DNA of 50,335 bases from an uncultured Verrucomicrobiota bacterium (GTDB lineage: Bacteria; Verrucomicrobiota; Verrucomicrobiia; Limisphaerales; UBA9464), in contig CAIWVP010000054.1 in NCBI GenBank assembly GCA_903916195.1, positions 1 through 50,335 on the forward strand, read 5' to 3'. Made by a program: the position numbers and the translations under genes. Position 1 is the first letter of the stretch, and the number at the start of each line of letters is the position of its first letter. Shown here piece by piece: positions 14,277-35,318 of the stretch. The notes under the pieces were generated by a model that did no database searches, was not told the origin of the DNA, and saw nothing but the letters and a program-made list of their open reading frames with translations.

Positions 14277-15593
14277 TCAGAGGCGCAGGAAGATCTTCTG
14301 CTTATAGAGCGTCCGGGCGAACCACAGCATCACCCCGAGCGCGACGAAGGCGAACAGCACCTCGCCGAAGCCCCCGAGATGCCCGCGGACCGGTCCGCCG
14401 ACGAAGCGTTCCGCGACCTTCCGGTAGTTCAGGATCTGGGCCGCCAGATAGATCGCGAGGGCGTTGGAACCGACCCAGACGAACGGCCGGCACCACGCGG
14501 TCTTCTCCCAGACATCCACCACCTGATGGAACACGCCGAGCAGGATCATGCTGTAGCCGCCGGCCACCAGCACGAACGACGACGTCCAGAGCTTCTTCAC
14601 GACCGGGAACTGGAACCCCCAGAGATAACCCACCGCCATCAGCAGGAACCCGAAGGTCAGCAGCACGATGGTCTTCCCGGTCGGCGGCATGTCCTCCCTC
14701 AGGAGCAACGTGCCGGCGAAAAGCCCCAAGAGACAGGTCGCGACCGCAGGGATCGTGCTCAGGACGCCTTCAGGGTCGTAGTACTTGTCGTAGAGTTTGC
14801 CGGGCAGGTACAGGAAATCGAAATGGTTCGCGACGTTGAGGCCGGGTTCGTACTGGCCGATGACGGTCTCCTTCGTCGAGAGATACAGCTTCATCGCGTT
14901 GGTCTCACCCGAACGTTCTGAGGCTTTTGCGAGGCCTTCTGTGCTGAGTTGGATGTCGCGGATCGGCACCCGGGCCATCATGCCCCAATATCCCAGCAGG
15001 ATCGCCGCGCAGACACCCCAGAGGGCACGGACCGGAAGCAGGAGGAAGAGCAGCCCGGTCGCCGTGTACGCCAAGGCGATGCGGTTGAGCACCCCAAGCA
15101 TCCGGGTGTTGTCGAGCAGGTGCCGGAAGAGCTCGGACGCGGTGGCCTCGCCTCCGCCGGGCGGCACGAACGGAGTGCCATGGAACCCGCCGGAATAGAA
15201 CAATCCGACGACATAGAGCAGCGCGCCGCGCGTGAGCACGCGCTTCGCCGCGGTCATCTTCCCGTGCTTGGCGACCGTCTTGCGGATCGAGAACGCCGCC
15301 GACACGCCGACGATGAACACGAACAGCGGGAAGATCAGGTCGTAGAACGCGAACCCTTCCCAGGCCACGTGGGAAAGCTGCCCGCGGATCGATGCCAGCA
15401 GCGGATTGCTCGCCCACCGGTCGAGCGCGGTGACCAAGAAGCTCGCGCCGACGATCCAAGACATGTCGAAGCCGCGCAGCGCGTCCACCGACAGGAAGCG
15501 ATCGGGCAGAACGGATCCGTCTTGTCCGGCTTTTCCGCCTTCGCGGCGGTCGCGCGGCCGCCGATAGCCGCCGGTCTCGAACTTGTAGGGCAT
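14277..15593 (-). CDS. HGSNAT-like (DUF5009) membrane acyltransferase, paralogue 1
   Basis: 438 residues, polytopic. RFLSVDALRGFDMSWI is the family's LDxLRGFD-type signature, followed by DLIFPLFVFIVGVSAAFSI, several hydrophobic helices, PEGVLSTIPAVATCLLG and WVGSNALAIYLAAQIL. The family includes eukaryotic heparan-alpha-glucosaminide N-acetyltransferase; the bacterial members are thought to acetylate cell-surface or periplasmic sugars across the inner membrane. The start lies 19 nt after the stop of the upstream paralogue, so the two are an operon and a tandem duplication. An insertion around residues 200-270 is longer than in paralogue 2. The substrate is unknown. Confidence 0.87.
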   Translation of the reverse strand: MPYKFETGGYRRPRDRREGGKAGQDGSVLPDRFLSVDALRGFDMSWIVGASFLVTALDRWASNPLLASIRGQLSHVAWEGFAFYDLIFPLFVFIVGVSAAFSIRKTVAKHGKMTAAKRVLTRGALLYVVGLFYSGGFHGTPFVPPGGGEATASELFRHLLDNTRMLGVLNRIALAYTATGLLFLLLPVRALWGVCAAILLGYWGMMARVPIRDIQLSTEGLAKASERSGETNAMKLYLSTKETVIGQYEPGLNVANHFDFLYLPGKLYDKYYDPEGVLSTIPAVATCLLGLFAGTLLLREDMPPTGKTIVLLTFGFLLMAVGYLWGFQFPVVKKLWTSSFVLVAGGYSMILLGVFHQVVDVWEKTAWCRPFVWVGSNALAIYLAAQILNYRKVAERFVGGPVRGHLGGFGEVLFAFVALGVMLWFARTLYKQKIFLRL

Positions 15594-15612: not shown

Positions 15613-16773
15613 TCAGAGCCGCAGATAGATCTTGCGGTGATGGAGGAAACGGGCGAGTCCGAACATGGCCCCGATGCTCAGCAACGAGACCAACAGGGTA
15701 CCGAGGCCCTTCGCCACCGCGGTATCGAGCAGGGCGCCCAGGTTCCCGCCGACCAAACGCGAGGCAAGCTGCTCGAAATCGATGAGATTGCCCGCGAGGT
15801 AGACCGTGATGGAATTGAGCCCCACCCACACGAACGGTCGGCACCATCGCTGCCAGCCCTTCACGTCGATGAGGTAGTAGAACGTGGCCAGCAACAGCGC
15901 GCTCCAACCGCCCGCCACCAGCACGAACGGCGAGGTCCACAGCTTCTTGATGATCGGGAAGAAAGCGCCCCAAGAATACCCGAGGACCAGCAGGGCGACG
16001 CCGGCCCCGGCCAGATGGAAGGCCTTCTCGGACGGGGTCCGCTTCGGATCACGCAAGAAGATCCCTGCGAAGACGCCCAAGAGGCACGACACCACCGCCG
16101 GCAACGTGCTCAGGACGCCCTCGGGGTCGTGGTCGCCGTCCCATTTCCGCAAGGGCAGGAACCGGGAGTCGAACCAGTTCACGATGTTCTTCCCCTCCTC
16201 GAAGCTCGCGACTCCTAGGCCCGGTACCGGCACCAACGCCAACAACGCCCAATATCCCAGCAACACCGACACCGCGATCCCGACCAGCGTCCGCGGCCGG
16301 AAGTAGATGAACAGGAACCCGGTCACCCCGTAGCAGATGGCGATCCGCTGCAGCACGCCCAGGAGCCGGATCTGCGAGAACGGCGTGGAGAACCCGCCGT
16401 AATAGAAGAGACCGAGCACATAGAGCAGCACCGCCCGCTGCAGCATCCGGGTGAACGCGGCGTCCTTGCCGTGCCTCGGGATGATCTTGCCGAGCGAGAA
16501 GACGAGCGAGACCCCGGCGATGAACACGAACATCGGGAAGATCAGGTCCTCGAAGTGGAACCCTCTCCAAGCGACGTGGTCCAGTTGCTCCGCGACGGCA
16601 TGCAGCACCGGCCCGCCCTTGATGGCCGCGAGCGCCGGCCCGAGGGAATCGGCGCCCATGATCCAGAACATGTCGAACCCGCGCAGGGCATCGAGCGAGA
16701 GCAACCGCCCCGAGATGGAGGCCGCAGGCGGCTCCGGAGCGGCCGGGTGCGGGGTCTGGTCGGATGGTTCCAT
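15613..16773 (-). CDS. HGSNAT-like (DUF5009) membrane acyltransferase, paralogue 2
   Basis: 386 residues with the same architecture as the gene that follows it: LLSLDALRGFDMFWIMG near residue 24, DLIFPMFVFIAGVSLVFSL, PEGVLSTLPAVVSCLLG, KKLWTSPFVLVAGGW and WVGLNSITVYLAGNLI, ending in HHRKIYLRL (paralogue 1 ends KQKIFLRL). About ten membrane helices are likely. Both copies keep the conserved motifs, so both are probably active and may use different acceptors. The ATG at 16773 is the first start in frame near the conserved domain. A 110-nt gap separates it from the HAD hydrolase gene upstream. Confidence 0.87.
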   Translation of the reverse strand: MEPSDQTPHPAAPEPPAASISGRLLSLDALRGFDMFWIMGADSLGPALAAIKGGPVLHAVAEQLDHVAWRGFHFEDLIFPMFVFIAGVSLVFSLGKIIPRHGKDAAFTRMLQRAVLLYVLGLFYYGGFSTPFSQIRLLGVLQRIAICYGVTGFLFIYFRPRTLVGIAVSVLLGYWALLALVPVPGLGVASFEEGKNIVNWFDSRFLPLRKWDGDHDPEGVLSTLPAVVSCLLGVFAGIFLRDPKRTPSEKAFHLAGAGVALLVLGYSWGAFFPIIKKLWTSPFVLVAGGWSALLLATFYYLIDVKGWQRWCRPFVWVGLNSITVYLAGNLIDFEQLASRLVGGNLGALLDTAVAKGLGTLLVSLLSIGAMFGLARFLHHRKIYLRL

Positions 16774-22248: not shown

Positions 22249-23298
22249 ATGGCTTTCATTCCTCCCACCCCGTTGTCGTTGTTGTCCTGCTGCCTTTTGT
22301 CCCCGCTGCTCGCCGCACCGGACCCGGCCGAGGACCGCCCGAGGAGCGGCGGGACGCTGAGCTTGTACGTCGAGAACGATTCGGTCGGGGGCACGGACCA
22401 CAACTACACCAGCGGCCTGAAGATCGGCTGGAGCTCCCCCGATCTCAGCAAGTTCAGCGACACGGCCGTCGCCCGGCCCTTCCTGCCGGCTTTGGAAACG
22501 CTTCCCGCCATCAATGGACCGGCCTACCAAAAGAACCTGGTGCTCGCGCTGGGACAGAACATCTACACGCCGGACGACACGCAGGCCATCCAGCCCATCC
22601 CCACCGACCGACCGTACGCGGGATGGTTGTACATGGGCGTCGGCCTCGTCTGGAAGACCGCCACGGTCCGCAACTCGGTCGTCTTCGACATCGGCGTCGT
22701 CGGCCCTTGGTCGTTGGCCAAAGAGACGCAACGCCTCGCGCACGACGTGCTGCAGCAGGACCACCCGCTGGGTTGGGACAACCAGCTGCACAACGAACTG
22801 GGCGTCGTCGGGACCTACGAGCGCACCTGGCGCTGGCCCAAGCACGAGCGGCGGAGCGGCCTGGACTGGGAACTCCTGCCGCATGCGGGCTTCGCGCTCG
22901 GGAACGTGGCGACCTATGCCAACCTCGGCGCCGAGCTGCGGTTCGGACTGAACCTTCCCGACGACTTCGGCAGCTCGGCCATCAACACCTCGGCGGTGAC
23001 CTCGACGCCCGTCGACGGCGCGATGGCCGCGGGCCGGCCGCGGGCCGATCTCGGCATCCACGTGTTCGGAAGGGTGGACGGTCGAGCGGTGGGCCACGAC
23101 ATCTTCATCGACGGGAACACCTTCGGCGACAGCCCATCGGTGGGGCACCATGTGTTCGTGGCCGACCTGAGCACCGGCGTCGCGATCAACTACAAGGACA
23201 CGTCGCTCGCCTATGCGTTCGTCCATCGCACCCGGGAATTCCCGGGCCAAATATCGGCGCAGATCTTCGGGACGATCTCGCTGAACGTGACCTACTGA
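22249..23298 (+). CDS. LpxR-family (DUF2219) outer-membrane lipid A deacylase
   Basis: 349 residues. A signal peptide (about 1-22) is followed by the LpxR hallmark YVENDSVGGTDHNYTSGLKIGW, of which the END and NYTSG parts hold conserved catalytic/calcium residues. PTDRPYAGWLYMG and GWDNQLHNELGVV (with the conserved histidine) are further family blocks. The C-terminus ends in an aromatic residue (LNVTY), as expected for a beta-barrel inserted by BAM. In Salmonella LpxR removes the 3'-acyloxyacyl group of lipid A. It supports a diderm, LPS-bearing cell. Confidence 0.88.
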   Translation: MAFIPPTPLSLLSCCLLSPLLAAPDPAEDRPRSGGTLSLYVENDSVGGTDHNYTSGLKIGWSSPDLSKFSDTAVARPFLPALETLPAINGPAYQKNLVLALGQNIYTPDDTQAIQPIPTDRPYAGWLYMGVGLVWKTATVRNSVVFDIGVVGPWSLAKETQRLAHDVLQQDHPLGWDNQLHNELGVVGTYERTWRWPKHERRSGLDWELLPHAGFALGNVATYANLGAELRFGLNLPDDFGSSAINTSAVTSTPVDGAMAAGRPRADLGIHVFGRVDGRAVGHDIFIDGNTFGDSPSVGHHVFVADLSTGVAINYKDTSLAYAFVHRTREFPGQISAQIFGTISLNVTY

Positions 23299-24193: not shown

Positions 24194-24259
24194 ACGGCGA
24201 TCCACCCCGGGGCGCCGCGACGCTTGTCATCACCGGATCGGCCGGTACGGTGCCGACGC

Positions 24260-25390
24260 ATGCTGGCCCACCGTCCGATCCGCGCCCTGTGCCTCGCCTC
24301 GGCCTTGACGCTGACGTCCGCCTCGGCGGCGACACCCTCCCCGCTCGCCGGAGCGCTCCGCGAGCTCCGTGAGGTCGCCGCGGAGGGCAAAGGGAACGTG
24401 CCCGCCTCCGCCGCCTGGAAACGTGTGGCCGCGGCCGATGCCAAAGCCGTCCCTGTGATCCTCGCCGCGATGGACGGCGCGAACGACTACGCGCTGAACT
24501 GGCTGCGCGCGGCCGCCGAGACCATCGCCCAGCGCGAGGCCGCCGCGGGACGCGCCCTGCCCGTCGCCGAGCTCCGGAAGTTCCTGGCCGACGTGAAGCA
24601 CCATCCCAAGGCGCGCCGCTTCGCGTACGAGCTGATCGGCCGCGCCGAGCCCGCGACCGCGCGCGCGCTGCTGCCCGGCTTCATCAACGACCCGGGCAAC
24701 GAGCTCCGCCGCGAAGCCGTCCAAGAGCGGGTCGATGCCGCCGCCAAGGACGTCGCGACCGACAAAGCCGCCGCCATCGCCGGATTGCGTTCCGCGCTGG
24801 GATATTCCCGCGAAGCCGACCAGGTCGACGACATCGCCAAACGGCTGACCGATCTGGGCGAGAAGGTGGACCTCCAGGCGGCCTTCGGCTGGGTGACGCG
24901 ATGGAAGCTCATCGGGCCTTTCGACAACACCGGCGGCGCCGGCTTCGAGAAGGCGTTCGCGCCCGAACGATCCATCGACCTCGCCGCGGAAGCCGACGGC
25001 AAGAACGCCAAGGTCCGATGGGTCGACCTCGTCACCAAGAGCGACTACGGCTTGATCGATTTCAACCAGCCGTTCACGGGGCTCAAGGAGGTCACCGGCT
25101 ACGCCTACGCGGAGTTCTGGTCCGACAAGGCCCGCGCCGCGCAGGTCCGCATCGGCACCGACAACGGCTGGAAGCTCTGGGTGAACGGCAAGTTCCTGTT
25201 CGGCCGCGAGGAGTACCACCGCAACACCGAGGTCGACCAATACCGCGTGCCCGTGGAGCTCAAGGCCGGCTCCAACACCTTCCTCGTGAAATGCACCCAG
25301 AACGAGCAGGTCGAGGACTGGACCAAGACCTGGCAGTTCCAGCTCCGCGTCACCGACGACCTGGGCACGCCGATCGTCCCTACCAAGTGA
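24260..25390 (+). CDS. secreted protein with HEAT-like N-half and C-terminal beta-sandwich
   Basis: 376 residues of unknown function. A signal peptide (about 1-22, ending in SASA) precedes an alpha-helical, Ala-rich region to about 210 that resembles HEAT-like repeats (ALRELREVAAEGKG, FLADVKHHPKARRFAYELIG). The C-terminal ~160 residues start with VTRWKLIGPFDNTGGAGFEKAF and include RIGTDNGWKLWVNGKFLFG, a pattern of PA14-like or glycosidase sugar-binding sandwich domains found in PVC secreted proteins. It is followed after 31 nt by the PQQ-type propeller gene, so the two probably act together outside the inner membrane. Confidence 0.7.
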   Translation: MLAHRPIRALCLASALTLTSASAATPSPLAGALRELREVAAEGKGNVPASAAWKRVAAADAKAVPVILAAMDGANDYALNWLRAAAETIAQREAAAGRALPVAELRKFLADVKHHPKARRFAYELIGRAEPATARALLPGFINDPGNELRREAVQERVDAAAKDVATDKAAAIAGLRSALGYSREADQVDDIAKRLTDLGEKVDLQAAFGWVTRWKLIGPFDNTGGAGFEKAFAPERSIDLAAEADGKNAKVRWVDLVTKSDYGLIDFNQPFTGLKEVTGYAYAEFWSDKARAAQVRIGTDNGWKLWVNGKFLFGREEYHRNTEVDQYRVPVELKAGSNTFLVKCTQNEQVEDWTKTWQFQLRVTDDLGTPIVPTK

Positions 25391-26695: not shown

Positions 26696-26833
26696 CCTTC
26701 CCTTCGTCGCATCGCCAGAAAGACGTGGATGGAAAGGGTCCTCATCATCCCGTGAAGAGACCGGCCGGGCGCGACGTCTGCCCGGAGTGCTCGGTGTCCT
26801 GCCTCTTGTGGCCGGCGCCGGCCCTCGCTAACC

Positions 26834-29506
26834 ATGGCCGCCGATGCGTTCCTCCCACGCTGCGCCGCACCGGGACCTTTCCCGGGGCCGCTCCCACCGG
26901 CTGCCCGCCACTCTGCCGGACGACGACTGCCCACCGCCGGCGGCCCGTGCATCCGTCCGCAACCCGTCCCTCCCCGCCGCTTGACCGGTCCTGCCGATAG
27001 CTCGCGCCAGCGCGTGACGGTGGACGGGAAATTCTTCCGCCTCGGCGCGGAGAAATTCTTCCCGAAGGGCGTCACCTACGGCCCGTTCGCGCCCGACGCG
27101 TCGGGCGACCACTTCGCGTCGCCGGAGCGGACGGAACGCGACCTCGCCCTCGTGGAAGAACTCGGGGCGAACCTGCTCCGCGTCTACCACGTGCCGCCCC
27201 GATGGTTCCTCGCGCTCGCCCAGGCGCACGGGCTGAAGCTCCTGGTCGACGTGCCCTGGAACAAGCACCTGTGCTTCCTCGACGACGACCGCTCGCGACA
27301 AGAGGCCCGCGGCGCCGTCCGCGCGGCGGCCGAGGCCTGCGCGCGGCATCCGGCGGTGTTCGCGCTGTCGCTGGTGAACGAGATCCCCGCCGACATCGTG
27401 CGCTGGAGCGGCGACGCGGCGGTGTGCGAGTTCATCGACGAACTCGTGGCGGTCGCGAAACAGGAGGACCCCGACCTGCTCTGCACCTTCGGCAACTTCC
27501 CGCCGACCGAGTTCCTGCGGCCGCAGAACGTCGATTTCTTCTGCTGGAACGTCTACCTGCACCAACCGCGCCCGTTCGAGAACTATCTCGCCCGGCTGCA
27601 GATGCTGGCCGACACGAAGCCGATGCTGCTCGGCGAGTTCGGCATCGACACGCTGCGCGAGGGCGACGAACGGCAGGCCGAGATCCTCGGCTGGAAGATC
27701 GAGTCCGCCTTCCGCGCAGGCTGCGCCGGGACGGTCGTCTACGCCTTCACCGACGACTGGTTCAAGGACGGCAGGCAGGTCGAGGACTGGAGGTTCGGCC
27801 TCACCGACGCCGACCGCGTGCCGAAGCCGGCGTTCGCCATGGTGAAGCGCCGGTTCGAGGCGGCGCCCTATTTCCCGCTGCCGCAGACGCCCCGTGTCTC
27901 GGTGGTGGTCGCGAGCTACAACGGCGCCGCCACGCTCAAGGCCTGCCTCCAGTCGCTCGGACGGCTGAACTACCCGAACTACGAGGTCATCCTCGTCGAC
28001 GACGGCTCGACCGACACGACGCCCGCGATCGCGGTCCAGTTCCCCGAGATGCGGTCGCTGCGACACGAGCGCAACCTGGGGTTGTCGGTCGCCCGCAACA
28101 CCGGCATCGAGGCCGCCACCGGCGATATCATCGCCTTCACCGACAGCGATTGCCGTGCGGACGAGGACTGGCTGCATTTCCTCATCGGCGACCTGCTGAA
28201 CTCCCGTTTCGCCGGCATCGGCGGGCACAATTTTTTGCCGCCGGAGGATTCGCCCGTCGCCTCGACCGTGATGGTCTCACCGGGCGGCCCCGCCCACGTG
28301 ATGCTCACCGACCGCCTCGCGGAGCACATCCCGGGCTGCAACATGGCGTTCTACCGATGGGCGCTGCAGGAGATCGGCGGCTTCGACCCGATCTTCTGGA
28401 AGGCCGGCGACGACGTGGACGTCTGCTGGCGGCTCCAGCAGCGCGGCTACCGGATCGGCTTCAGCCCGGGAGGCTTCGTCTGGCACTACCGGCGCAACAC
28501 GGTCCGCGCCTACCTCAAGCAGCAGGCGGGCTACGGCGAGGCCGAGGCCGTCCTGGAACGGCGGCATCCGGAGAACTTCAACCGCTTCGGCGCGTCCCGC
28601 TGGGCCGGCCGCATCTACACCCCGGCCAAGATCGGCGTGGAGACGCGCGCGCCGATCATCTATCACGGCCTGTTCGGCAGCGGCTTCTTCCAGAGCATCT
28701 ACGCGCCGACGCCCAACCTCCTGCTCGTCGTCGCCACCAGCCTCGAATACCACACGCTCGTCTCCCTGCCGCTGCTCGTGCTCGGCACCGTCGTGCCACA
28801 ACTGGAGCCGATCGGCATCGCCAGCGTGCTGACCAGCGTCGCGCTCTGCTGCGTCGCCGGCGCGCAGGCCGAACTGGAGAAGGACAAGCTCCGCTGGTGG
28901 TCGCGACCGCTCGTGGCGCTGCTCTTCTTCCTCCAGCCGATCGTGCGCGGATGGGCCCGCCAACGCGCGAACCTGCAGGGCCAGCAGACGCCTCTCAGCG
29001 CGCGGGAGAACCTCGAGTCGCTCAGCCTCGAATCGGACGACAACCGCCTCGACCAGGTGCTCTACTGGGCCGAGCAAGGCGGCGCGGACCGCCTCGGCTT
29101 CATCGCCCGCATCATCCAGCGCCTCGACGAGCGCGGTTGGCAGAACAAACCCGACACCGGCTGGAGCAACCACGACATCGAGGTCTACGGATCGCGCTGG
29201 GCGCAGTTGCGGTTCACCACCGCCGCGGAGTTCCACCGGGGCGGACGCGAACTCATCCGCTGCCGGCTGGAGAGCTCCTGGACGTTCGTTTCGCGGGTCA
29301 CCTTCTGGTCGGTCGTCGGTGCCGGGATCCTCGTCATCTCCGCCGTCGGACATTGGTGGGCGTGGCTCAACCTGCTGTCCCTCATCCCGCTGGCGCACCT
29401 GCTCAATTCTTCCAAGCGCGACCTCCAGCGCGTCTTCGCCGCCTTCCTCGACGAACGCGCCAAGGAGTCCGGCCTCGTCAAGATCCGCGCGGACAAGCGT
29501 GCCTGA
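26834..29506 (+). CDS. glycoside hydrolase / family 2 glycosyltransferase fusion, membrane-bound
   Basis: About 890 residues. Residues ~60-345 form a clan GH-A-like (beta/alpha)8 glycosidase: VTVDGKFFRLGAEKFFPKGVTYG, candidate acid/base Glu183 in LSLVNEIPAD and candidate nucleophile Glu268 in LLGEFGID. From ~352 a GT2 domain begins with RVSVVVASYNGAATL, then VDDGSTD (~391), TDSDCR (~437) and GDDVDVCWRLQQRGY (~524). Hydrophobic helices lie at ~626-680, ~690-710 and ~821-858. It may polymerise a polysaccharide while trimming or transglycosylating it; this is inference. The first ~55 residues are low-complexity, so the real start may be later (GTG at 27014 is possible). Confidence 0.85.
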   Translation: MAADAFLPRCAAPGPFPGPLPPAARHSAGRRLPTAGGPCIRPQPVPPRRLTGPADSSRQRVTVDGKFFRLGAEKFFPKGVTYGPFAPDASGDHFASPERTERDLALVEELGANLLRVYHVPPRWFLALAQAHGLKLLVDVPWNKHLCFLDDDRSRQEARGAVRAAAEACARHPAVFALSLVNEIPADIVRWSGDAAVCEFIDELVAVAKQEDPDLLCTFGNFPPTEFLRPQNVDFFCWNVYLHQPRPFENYLARLQMLADTKPMLLGEFGIDTLREGDERQAEILGWKIESAFRAGCAGTVVYAFTDDWFKDGRQVEDWRFGLTDADRVPKPAFAMVKRRFEAAPYFPLPQTPRVSVVVASYNGAATLKACLQSLGRLNYPNYEVILVDDGSTDTTPAIAVQFPEMRSLRHERNLGLSVARNTGIEAATGDIIAFTDSDCRADEDWLHFLIGDLLNSRFAGIGGHNFLPPEDSPVASTVMVSPGGPAHVMLTDRLAEHIPGCNMAFYRWALQEIGGFDPIFWKAGDDVDVCWRLQQRGYRIGFSPGGFVWHYRRNTVRAYLKQQAGYGEAEAVLERRHPENFNRFGASRWAGRIYTPAKIGVETRAPIIYHGLFGSGFFQSIYAPTPNLLLVVATSLEYHTLVSLPLLVLGTVVPQLEPIGIASVLTSVALCCVAGAQAELEKDKLRWWSRPLVALLFFLQPIVRGWARQRANLQGQQTPLSARENLESLSLESDDNRLDQVLYWAEQGGADRLGFIARIIQRLDERGWQNKPDTGWSNHDIEVYGSRWAQLRFTTAAEFHRGGRELIRCRLESSWTFVSRVTFWSVVGAGILVISAVGHWWAWLNLLSLIPLAHLLNSSKRDLQRVFAAFLDERAKESGLVKIRADKRA

Positions 29507-29578
29507 GCCGCCCGGCGCGATCCGTCCGCATCCGCTCCCCGCGCTTGCCCGCGCGCGATCACCGGCCAAACTCACGCC

Positions 29579-29998
29579 ATGCCGAAGCTGCTCTGGCTGG
29601 TGAAACAGGAACCCGAGGCCTATGCGTGGAAAGCCTTCGTCGCCGACGGGAAGACCGCATGGACGGGCGTCCGCAATTTCCAGGCGAGGAACAACCTCCG
29701 CGCGATGAAGAAGGACGACCTCGTGCTCTACTACCACAGCGTCACCGGCAAAGAGATCGTCGGCATCGCCAAGGTCATGCGCGAGGCCTATCCGGATCCG
29801 ACGGCCGAGGACGGCGATTGGTCCTGCGTGGACCTCGCACCGGTGGAGCCGCTTCGGACCCCCGTGCCGTTGGATCTGCTCAAGACCGACGCCCTCACGA
29901 AGGACATGGCGCTCATCCGTCAATCGCGCCTCAGCGTCACGCCGCTCACCGGAGCCCAGTCCGCGCGCATCCTCGAACTCGGCGCCACCCGGCTCTGA
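29579..29998 (+). CDS. EVE-domain protein
   Basis: 139 residues, a single EVE domain of the PUA-like fold (thymocyte nuclear protein 1 type). WLVKQEPEAYAW is the signature start, VRNFQARNNLRAMKKDDLVLYYHS the conserved core and VGIAKVMREAYPDPT the following strand. EVE domains bind modified bases in DNA or RNA and occur both in defence-linked and in tRNA/housekeeping contexts. Here the neighbours are a SpoU RNA methyltransferase (convergent) and cysS, which favours a housekeeping RNA role, but this is inference. Confidence 0.92.
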   Translation: MPKLLWLVKQEPEAYAWKAFVADGKTAWTGVRNFQARNNLRAMKKDDLVLYYHSVTGKEIVGIAKVMREAYPDPTAEDGDWSCVDLAPVEPLRTPVPLDLLKTDALTKDMALIRQSRLSVTPLTGAQSARILELGATRL

Positions 29999-30011
29999 CG
30001 CGCGCGCCGTC

Positions 30012-30833
30012 TCACCATCCGCGGCGCGCCGCCCGCTGCCGCTGCACCTCGGCGAAGCAGACCGCCGCGGCCGACGCCACGTTGAGCGAATCCATGTCGG
30101 CCTCCATCGGGATGGTCACCGCCTCGTCGCATGCGTCGACGATCTCCGGACGGAGCCCCGGTCCCTCCGCGCCGAGCACCACGCACACATCGCCGACAAG
30201 GTCGGTCTCCCAGAGCGTCCGGGCACCGGCCCGCGGATGCGCCGCGACACAGCGGATCCCGGCCCCGCGCATGGCCGCCAAGGTCCCGGCCAGGTCCGCC
30301 GAGAGCACGTACGGCAGCTTGAACATCGCGCCCATCGAGCTCCGCACCGCGCGCCGCAGGTACGGATGGGATGCGGTCTCCCCCACGACCAAGGCCCGGG
30401 CGCCGAGCGCCACCGCGCTGCGCACGATCGTGCCGGTGTTGTCGGCGTTTCCCAATCCGTCCAGCGCGACGAAGAACCGCGGGCGCGGCAAGGCGAGCAG
30501 ACTTTCCAGCGTCGCCGCGCGAGGCACGCGCGCCAACGCGAGCACGCCTTGGTAGTGCACGAACCCGGTGAGCTGCTCCAGCACGAGCAGATCGGCCACG
30601 AACAGGTCGATCGTCCCGGGCCGGGCCGCGAGCAAGGGCTCGAACTCCGCCCGCCATTCCGGCGGCAACAACACGGACAGCACCTCCAGCCCGGACTCCA
30701 GCAACTGGTGGACGACCTTCGGGCCCTCTGCCACGAAGACGCCGTCGTTGAGGTGCCCGACCTGCGCCCGCATCGTCCGGAACGGCACCAACCGCGGGTC
30801 GGCGAGGTCGGTGATGGAGTGGATCGTGGACAT
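30012..30833 (-). CDS. SpoU/TrmH-family RNA 2'-O-methyltransferase
   Basis: 273 residues. The SPOUT knot motifs are present: FVALDGLGNADNTGTIVRSA (motif 1), VVLGAEGPGLRPEIVDACD (motif 2) and VTIPMEADMDSLNVASAAAVCFAE (motif 3). An N-terminal substrate-binding domain (~1-105) resembles the L30e-like domain of RlmB and TrmH relatives. It methylates a ribose in 23S rRNA or tRNA; the exact site cannot be told. It lies 67 nt downstream of cysS on the same strand, and 13 nt separate it from the EVE gene stop. Confidence 0.9.
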   Translation of the reverse strand: MSTIHSITDLADPRLVPFRTMRAQVGHLNDGVFVAEGPKVVHQLLESGLEVLSVLLPPEWRAEFEPLLAARPGTIDLFVADLLVLEQLTGFVHYQGVLALARVPRAATLESLLALPRPRFFVALDGLGNADNTGTIVRSAVALGARALVVGETASHPYLRRAVRSSMGAMFKLPYVLSADLAGTLAAMRGAGIRCVAAHPRAGARTLWETDLVGDVCVVLGAEGPGLRPEIVDACDEAVTIPMEADMDSLNVASAAAVCFAEVQRQRAARRGW

Positions 30834-34007: not shown

Positions 34008-34083
34008 TGGGGTGACCGACGGGACTCGAACCCGCAACAACCAGAATCACAATCTGGGGATCTACCATTGATCTACGGCCACC
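34008..34083 (-). tRNA. tRNA-His (GTG), CCA encoded
   Basis: Read on the minus strand the sequence folds as a complete cloverleaf: a GTGGCCG acceptor arm with an extra G at -1 and discriminator C73, the hallmark of tRNA-His; anticodon stem CCAGA/TCTGG with anticodon GTG; and a TTCGAGT T-loop. CCA is encoded at 34010-34008. It lies between clpX and the DapA-family gene, on the same strand as clpX. Confidence 0.96.
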
Positions 34084-35242: not shown

Positions 35243-35318
35243 GGGGTCTTAGCTCAGTTGGTAGAGCGTCTCGTTCGCAACGAGAAGGTCAGGGGTTCGA
35301 ACCCCCTAGACTCCACCA
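35243..35318 (+). tRNA. tRNA-Ala (CGC), CCA encoded
   Basis: A 76-nt cloverleaf: acceptor GGGGTCT pairs with AGACTCC and contains the G3-U70 pair that identifies tRNA-Ala; the D-arm is AGCTCAGTTGGTAGAGC; anticodon stem TCTCG/CGAGA holds a TTCGCAA loop with anticodon CGC (reads GCG); the T-arm is AGGGGTTCGAACCCCCT; CCA is encoded. The flanks (35127-35242 and 35319-35449) hold no recognised gene. Confidence 0.97.

Follow-up and report, generated by a model that had tools for sequence, protein, structure and literature searches.

We describe here a gene of an uncultured Verrucomicrobiota bacterium that encodes, in a single polypeptide, a clan GH-A barrel resembling glycoside hydrolase (GH) family 157 and, behind it, a glycosyltransferase family 2 (GT2) domain with membrane helices. 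The gene lies on the plus strand of contig CAIWVP010000054.1 (assembly GCA_903916195.1), the first 50,335 nucleotides of which were analysed and are called the window below. Both domains have complete catalytic residues, the fusion is conserved, and no membrane segment precedes or separates the domains. In relatives, the gene is linked to, and co-occurs with, genes for an ATP-binding cassette (ABC) exporter, an acetyltransferase and a protein family that we call GT390. We propose that the fusion makes a glycan in the cytosol, contains its own retaining glycosidase or transglycosidase, and feeds ABC export, a proposal that we consider evenly poised between right and wrong. Its function is less certain in the lineage of the window than in the relatives, because the gene cluster is absent there.

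The Fusion Gene and Its Relatives

In an open reading frame analysis of the window, the frame 26834-29506 (+) was open over 890 codons. The preliminary description of this frame had taken it as a gene from its first codon; the frame holds, while the start probably lies further in. At 54 of 76 related loci the start codon is found 28-29 codons ahead of a GVTYGP motif (the next offset, -26, accounts for 15 of 75), and translation here therefore probably begins at the TTG at 26981, giving a coding sequence at 26981..29506 (+) of 841 aa; the ATG at 26834 would give 890 aa. The initial 49 residues of the 890-aa frame, to which residue numbers refer below, are thus probably not translated, and the in-frame stretch 26834..26980 (+) is probably an untranslated leader. 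Since these 49 residues contain no hydrophobic segment (maximum KD19 hydropathy 0.42), the topology discussed below does not depend on the choice of start.

That one polypeptide carries both the glycosidase and the glycosyltransferase was borne out. Homologous loci among the best 80 of 126 relatives were 44-97% identical, mostly over the full length, and AlphaFold2, run with 51 sequences, gave a model of the full protein with pLDDT 88.7 and pTM 0.81. Conservation was assessed in two sets. The first, of 73 aligned sequences including that of the window, was found with the full-length query, kept by length, and obtained from 81 sequences after removal of 5 without the anchor motif and 3 cut by contig ends. 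The second, of 51 sequences, combines 27 of the 73 (less than 72% mutual identity) with 24 distant ones.

Other long frames overlap the fusion, at 26828-28228 (-; 466 aa) and 27202-30555 (+; 1117 aa), and are probably spurious; in this GC-rich genome open frames by themselves are little evidence. At one related locus (L036) the fusion frame stays open for 969 more codons upstream, which may reflect a larger fusion or a chance frame in GC-rich DNA.

The Glycosidase Domain

Clan GH-A enzymes are (beta/alpha)8 barrels with an acid/base Glu after strand 4, in an Asn-Glu pair, and a nucleophile Glu at strand 7. By profile and structure matches, residues 60-348 (27011..27877, +) form a GH157-like barrel of this clan, with Asn182-Glu183 (27377..27382, +; invariant in the 73 sequences) as the predicted acid/base and Glu268 (27635..27637, +) as the predicted nucleophile. 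Six GH-A positions, Arg116, Asn182, Glu183, Tyr241, Glu268 and Trp309, are invariant in the 73 sequences; in the more diverse 51, all are invariant except Tyr241, which is kept in at least 90%. Two Pfam models barely exceeded their cut-offs: Glyco_hydro_72 (PF03198; 27.2 versus 25.9 bits), with a match confined to residues 61-122, and Glyco_hydro_2_C (22.3 versus 21 bits; residues 98-342).

The AlphaFold2 model of the GH domain alone (pLDDT 95.6, pTM 0.93) was most similar to LaGH157 in its laminaritriose complex (9g4n; Z 32.2 over 291 residues, root-mean-square deviation 2.5, 19% identity), followed by a GH2 galacturonidase (Z 30.8). Glu183 and Glu268 align with Glu132 and Glu224 of LaGH157; the sequence row of the 9g4n mutant has Ala at the latter position. 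The GH-A residues are complete, and the barrel is predicted to be a clan GH-A retaining glycosidase with a full active site, as the early naming of Glu183 and Glu268 had implied.

For residues 60-345 the nearest family is GH157 by both fold and sequence, with GH2 close behind. In phmmer searches the E-value was 5e-7 against GH157 and 9.5e-7 against the GH2 galacturonidase; no GH157 model was seen in the libraries scanned. The phylum also has standalone GH157-like proteins (loci L128-L131) that are 24-28% identical to the GH domain of the fusion and match it at the profile level (probability 100, E 4e-40) with both Glu aligned. The two groups have D-x-W and E(D/E)W-x-(F)G motifs in common, and one of the standalone proteins (L128) matches LaGH157 at E 3.3e-59. 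Sequence on these grounds favours GH157 over GH2. A GH2 beta-glucuronidase was tried and rejected: such enzymes bind the uronate through an NxK motif, and in a low-identity alignment the barrel has D-R-F-G (with Trp319 inserted) opposite N-N-K-G of the galacturonidase 6ncw. GH157 enzymes are described as endo-beta-1,3-glucanases in PMC10229575.

The Glycosyltransferase Domain and Membrane Topology

The GT2 domain (residues 353-584; 27890..28585, +) was delimited with Pfam, curated families and the AlphaFold2 model. PF00535 matches residues 356-470 at E 3.6e-31 (108.8 bits, cut-off 23.3). The motif set comprises the DD motif Asp389-Asp390 (27998..28003, +) within DDGSTD (389-394), the DxD motif Asp437-Ser438-Asp439 (28142..28150, +) and AGDDVDVCW (28403..28429, +), in which DDVDVCW (526-532) supplies the (E/D)D catalytic-base motif. 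The preliminary description had placed all of these correctly, together with both catalytic Glu. The acidic motif residues are invariant in the 73 sequences, while Thr393, Ser438 and Val530 vary. QQAGYG (28520..28537, +) is found where processive synthases have Q(Q/R)xRW, a motif taken from PMC10237404.

Behind the GT2 domain, hydropathy and AlphaFold2 predict two membrane helices (residues 637-678; 28742..28867, +) and, near the end, two more (residues 818-878; 29285..29467, +). Between the pairs lie a helix with invariant QP..RG..R, probably interfacial (residues 690-715; 28901..28978, +; alignment and AlphaFold2), and a small soluble C-terminal domain in the AlphaFold2 model (residues 739-816; 29048..29281, +). 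No hydrophobic segment occurs before residue 637 of the window protein (maximum KD19 1.02 for residues 50-635), and ahead of AGDDVD the KD19 of the 51 sequences does not exceed 1.49. Seven of the 51, all of family f4 (loci L122, L123, L125, L126, L133, L134 and L136), are a short form of 688-714 aa that has no hydrophobic segment after the GT2 motif and a tail resembling the small soluble C-terminal domain. Judged by frame length, two genomes (G319 and G531) have one long and one short copy each.

GT2 domains draw on cytosolic donors, and with no membrane segment between the domains the barrel should therefore be cytosolic too. The absence of anything hydrophobic ahead of the GT2 domain, together with the 7 relatives without helices, indicates that both active sites are probably on the cytosolic side. 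The concern that the topology might place the two domains on incompatible sides of the membrane was thus answered: both would be on the same, probably cytosolic, side.

Distribution of the Fusion

The genome of the window has one copy of the fusion; 9 other matches cover the GT2 part only. The genomes sampled for the phylum and for the class all lie within Verrucomicrobiota, and genome counts for the barrel or the fusion are GH-domain matches at E 1e-30 or better. In the phylum sample of 387 genomes, E fell below 1e-48 at 38 places; all belong to one class, that of the window, whose own genome is among them. Within the class, 236 of 384 sampled genomes, from 113 of 171 genera, had the barrel, nearly always in single copy, so that the fusion is spread over most sampled genomes of one Verrucomicrobiota class. 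With the GH domain as query, 37 strong matches lay outside the genome of the window, and all 24 that were read had GH and GT2 in one frame, while four weak matches were standalone GH proteins.

In the scan of genome contigs, the best 80 of 126 relatives were all titled Verrucomicrobia or groups within it. A scan of viral contigs with the family alignment gave relatives in 0 of 144 pattern stretches, and a plasmid search with the GH domain gave a single match, archaeal, at 27%.

An ABC Exporter Linked to the Fusion in Relatives

Among the 92 loci with 1200 nt or more of sequence after the fusion, five distant ones have as next gene, on the same strand and at most 83 nt away, one for an ABC half-transporter of 593-618 aa. 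These five fusion-adjacent exporters (L117, L118, L119, L121 and L127, from genomes G265, G078, G295, G042 and G319) made up the exporter model A3. At E 1e-190, A3 detected an exporter in 139 of the 384 class genomes, 136 with the barrel and 3 without (the latter 75-83% complete); 100 genomes had the barrel only and 145 had neither. Three exporter candidates were scored per genome, so exporter absences are soft. The Fisher test for this co-occurrence, which ignores phylogeny, gave p 4.5e-34.

Places for both genes were listed in 114 genomes, a count that omits 25 of the 139 exporter genomes for want of a listed fusion place (three of them without a GH match). The exporter was immediately downstream on the same strand in 26 of the 114, distributed over nine families (f5 11, f121 5, f10 3, f4 2 and five others 1 each); five of the 26 are the A3 seeds and so are adjacent by construction. 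G432 is an additional case of an exporter adjoining the fusion. A tree of 31 exporters unites 11 of them, adjacent to the fusion or in trans and with 3 of the 5 seeds included, in one clade with support 1.0; exporters beside the fusion in G295, G319 and G412 fall outside it. The tree suggests that the pairing of exporter and fusion arose repeatedly, its deeper nodes being weak. The best exporter of the window's own genome (C175) neighbours the main clade with support 0.76.

The linked exporter is MsbA/NdvA-like. None of three exporters scanned reached the cut-offs of the ChvA/NdvA models TIGR01192 and PRK13657; for the L121 exporter the scores were 327.8 versus 585.4 bits and 378.4 versus 733 bits. 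A lipid A MsbA operon was considered for the linked exporter and rejected, no lpxK- or kdtA-like neighbour being seen in the exporter regions by eye, with no profile scan.

GT390 and Other Genes of the Clusters

GT390 is a family of 390-aa proteins without a Pfam match and with a weakly GT-B-like C-terminus; its genes, for example L186 8264-9433, often occur as tandem pairs, with ABC exporter and acetyltransferase genes next to them. Of the 384 class genomes, 144 have GT390, and 140 of these also have the barrel (here too the Fisher test ignores phylogeny). It lies about 100 bp or less from the end of the fusion in G389, G397, G402 and G416, in convergent orientation except in G402; these gaps are exact for G389 and G402 and otherwise use an approximate fusion length. 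The order fusion-exporter-GT390-GT390 occurs on one strand in G391 and G406. In G610, G487 and G479, genomes from the window's own order, the fusion is near two exporters that point away from it, 1-2 acetyltransferases and 1-2 GT390 genes; G610 additionally has a pyruvyltransferase and a GT4 piece, and G479 a GT4 and a PIG-L gene. Between them, the clusters read in relatives contain ABC exporters, hexapeptide acetyltransferases, GT390, pyruvyltransferase, PIG-L and GT4.

At loci L194 and L195, in the window's own order, secreted-looking proteins of 580-594 aa are encoded between or beside the fusion and the two exporters; the one scanned has a Big_7 domain.

Proposed Function and Alternatives

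In the mechanism that we propose, both domains would be active and on the cytosolic side, and the product would be of glucan type, perhaps beta-1,3-linked. The fusion would be anchored to the inner membrane on its cytosolic side; the short form that some relatives have would be soluble. Its GT2 domain would move sugar from a nucleotide-sugar donor to a growing chain, and the GH157-like barrel, in the same compartment, would cut or transglycosylate that chain, with length control, branching or ring closure as the possible outcome. The ABC half-transporter would then export the edited chain, and in many relatives the product may additionally be acetylated and glycosylated. If this is right, most sampled Verrucomicrobiia genomes have in common a synthase of an exported glycan, GH157-like barrels gain a biosynthetic instead of a degradative role, and a linked gene set (ABC exporter, GT390, O-acetyltransferases) can be named for the glycan of a widespread group with hardly any cultured members. 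A bolder form, which we think improbable, is a class-wide cytosolic self-editing synthase in which GT2 makes a beta-glucan-like chain, the GH157-like barrel cyclises or branches it by transglycosylation, and the exported glycan is often acetylated and pyruvylated. This would add to GT84-GH94 and GH17-GT2 a third, independent way of combining synthase and editor, and would mean an exported glycan new to the phylum.

The idea of a polysaccharide synthase with a built-in glycosidase was already part of the preliminary description, and it agrees with the genes near the fusion in relatives, for an exporter, acetyltransferases and glycosyltransferases. A number of observations count against it. In the motif of processive (BcsA-like) GT2 enzymes QQ is kept and RW is absent, the nearest curated GT2 family is MftF, and the short form without helices means that synthesis at the membrane is no family-wide need. 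GH157 and GH2 are close: the other two GH157 entries (Z 30.1-30.2) tie with GH2, and the fold alone therefore barely distinguishes the two. The statement that no polysaccharide gene cluster surrounds the gene is correct for the window, where none was recognisable among the 26 neighbour proteins scanned, and fails for the relatives, with their exporter, acetyltransferase and glycosyltransferase clusters. The genome of the window yielded no GT390 with the query that matched in 144 genomes, in a search that had no separate positive control, and no exporter at 1e-190 (best 8.2e-167). At the thresholds used, the exporter is missing from 100 of the 236 genomes with the barrel and GT390 from 96; of the 114 exporters, 85 are on another contig than the fusion and 3 share its contig but are distant; the co-occurrence is uncorrected for kinship; and among 14 exporter regions away from the seeds, a WbbJ/WcaF-like O-acetyltransferase was present in 5 and GT390 in 6.

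Several of these points would also suit an MftF-like enzyme, in which GT2 would transfer a single sugar or a few to an acceptor that is a lipid or a small molecule, GH would remove wrong or excess sugars, and no polysaccharide would be made. MftF (TIGR03965) is the best curated match at 186.8 bits, two plasmid genes annotated as MftF are 35.6 and 36.7% identical, the RW is missing, the window protein has about four membrane helices and the short form none, and MsbA-like exporters also transport lipid-linked glycans. However, the score is under the family cut-off of 280 bits and the match covers residues 348-593 only, no MftC over its cut-off was found in the genome of the window, the neighbours in relatives (pyruvyltransferase, O-acetyltransferases) are typical of polysaccharides, and MftF itself builds a cellulose-like chain according to PMC7491314. 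We regard an MftF-like role as rather unlikely; the mycofactocin pathway proper was rejected on the same lack of MftC. Within our own proposal there is the sub-question of whether the barrel acts by hydrolysis alone, trimming or releasing the chain without transglycosylation. This falls somewhat short of an even chance: GH157, the closest relative that has been characterised, has endo-beta-1,3-glucanase activity (PMC10229575), whereas a free hydrolase in the compartment of synthesis would be wasteful unless regulated and two GT2-fused GH17 domains of Pseudomonas transglycosylate (PMC10237404), neither point being decisive. A barrel that is no longer catalytic and binds the chain only would agree with its low identity to LaGH157 (about 17-20%), but is very unlikely given how the two catalytic Glu and the GH-A residues around them are maintained in both sequence sets, as described above. 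A fusion created by an assembly or frame error might be suspected in a draft genome of 211 contigs, but the same architecture in 73 aligned sequences and in 24 of 24 strong GH-domain matches makes that chance negligible.

Comparison with Known Systems

The closest parallel in architecture is the GH17-GT2 proteins of Pseudomonas, 'Orphan' and NdvB, described in PMC10237404. As here, one polypeptide carries a TIM-barrel glycosidase ahead of a membrane GT2. For two GT2-fused GH17 domains, transglycosylation was shown there, and the role proposed is that of a glucan synthase with an editing or cyclising transglycosylase; the GH17 barrel has a signal peptide, is periplasmic and is followed by three membrane helices before GT2 (PMC10237404). 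Our fusion, in contrast, has a GH157-like barrel and no membrane segment between barrel and GT2: PF00332 (GH17) gave no match up to E 0.1 and nothing hydrophobic precedes GT2.

Cgs of Agrobacterium pairs with the ABC exporter ChvA/NdvA, and an ABC half-transporter is likewise a partner of the fusion, here in relatives, although the exporters scanned score under the ChvA/NdvA cut-offs. Every soluble domain of Cgs is cytosolic according to PMC10901819; cytosolic soluble catalytic domains, and synthesis plus length control in one membrane protein, would be the likeness to our fusion. Unlike Cgs, the fusion matched no GT84, cyclase or GH94 domain, only GH-A and GT2. Fusions of synthase and glycosidase are thus already known (GH17-GT2 and GT84-GH94), and the present one belongs to neither type.

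As to the single domains, the GH157 endo-beta-1,3-glucanases LaGH157 and BcellWH2_01931 are the nearest to the barrel in fold and sequence and have both catalytic Glu in common with it; BcellWH2_01931 is a degradative enzyme with a predicted cell-surface location, whereas the barrel here is fused to a glycosyltransferase. The GT2 domain resembles MftF, as discussed. We found no description of the GH157-like/GT2 pairing, its compartment, its class-wide spread or its linkage to an exporter in the literature searched, which did not cover subscription papers or CAZy.

Other Features of the Window

The neighbours of the fusion in the window include a pyrroloquinoline quinone (PQQ)-type propeller, OmpA-like, LpxR, EVE, SpoU, CysS and AAA/ClpX-like proteins, oxidoreductases, periplasmic binding proteins, a branched-chain amino acid ABC importer and a phosphodiesterase; some have no match. 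Few related loci have EVE, SpoU or ClpX-like genes in common with the window. About 10 kb from the fusion, two tandem proteins on the minus strand (14277-15593 and 15613-16773) have weak matches, just short of the threshold, to the membrane acyltransferase models OpgC_C, HGSNAT_cat and DUF5009. OpgC modifies periplasmic glucans; an OpgG/MdoG-type glucan was looked for in the window's own genome and rejected, nothing being found while the E. coli control was positive.

Upstream of the fusion, the LpxR-family outer-membrane protein is encoded at 22249-23298 (PF09982, E 1.7e-98), and a 388-aa protein with a sub-threshold HEAT match only is encoded at 24224-25390, upstream of the PQQ-propeller protein. 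Two tRNA genes lie downstream, tRNA-His (gtg) at 34008-34082 (-) and tRNA-Ala (cgc) at 35243-35318 (+).

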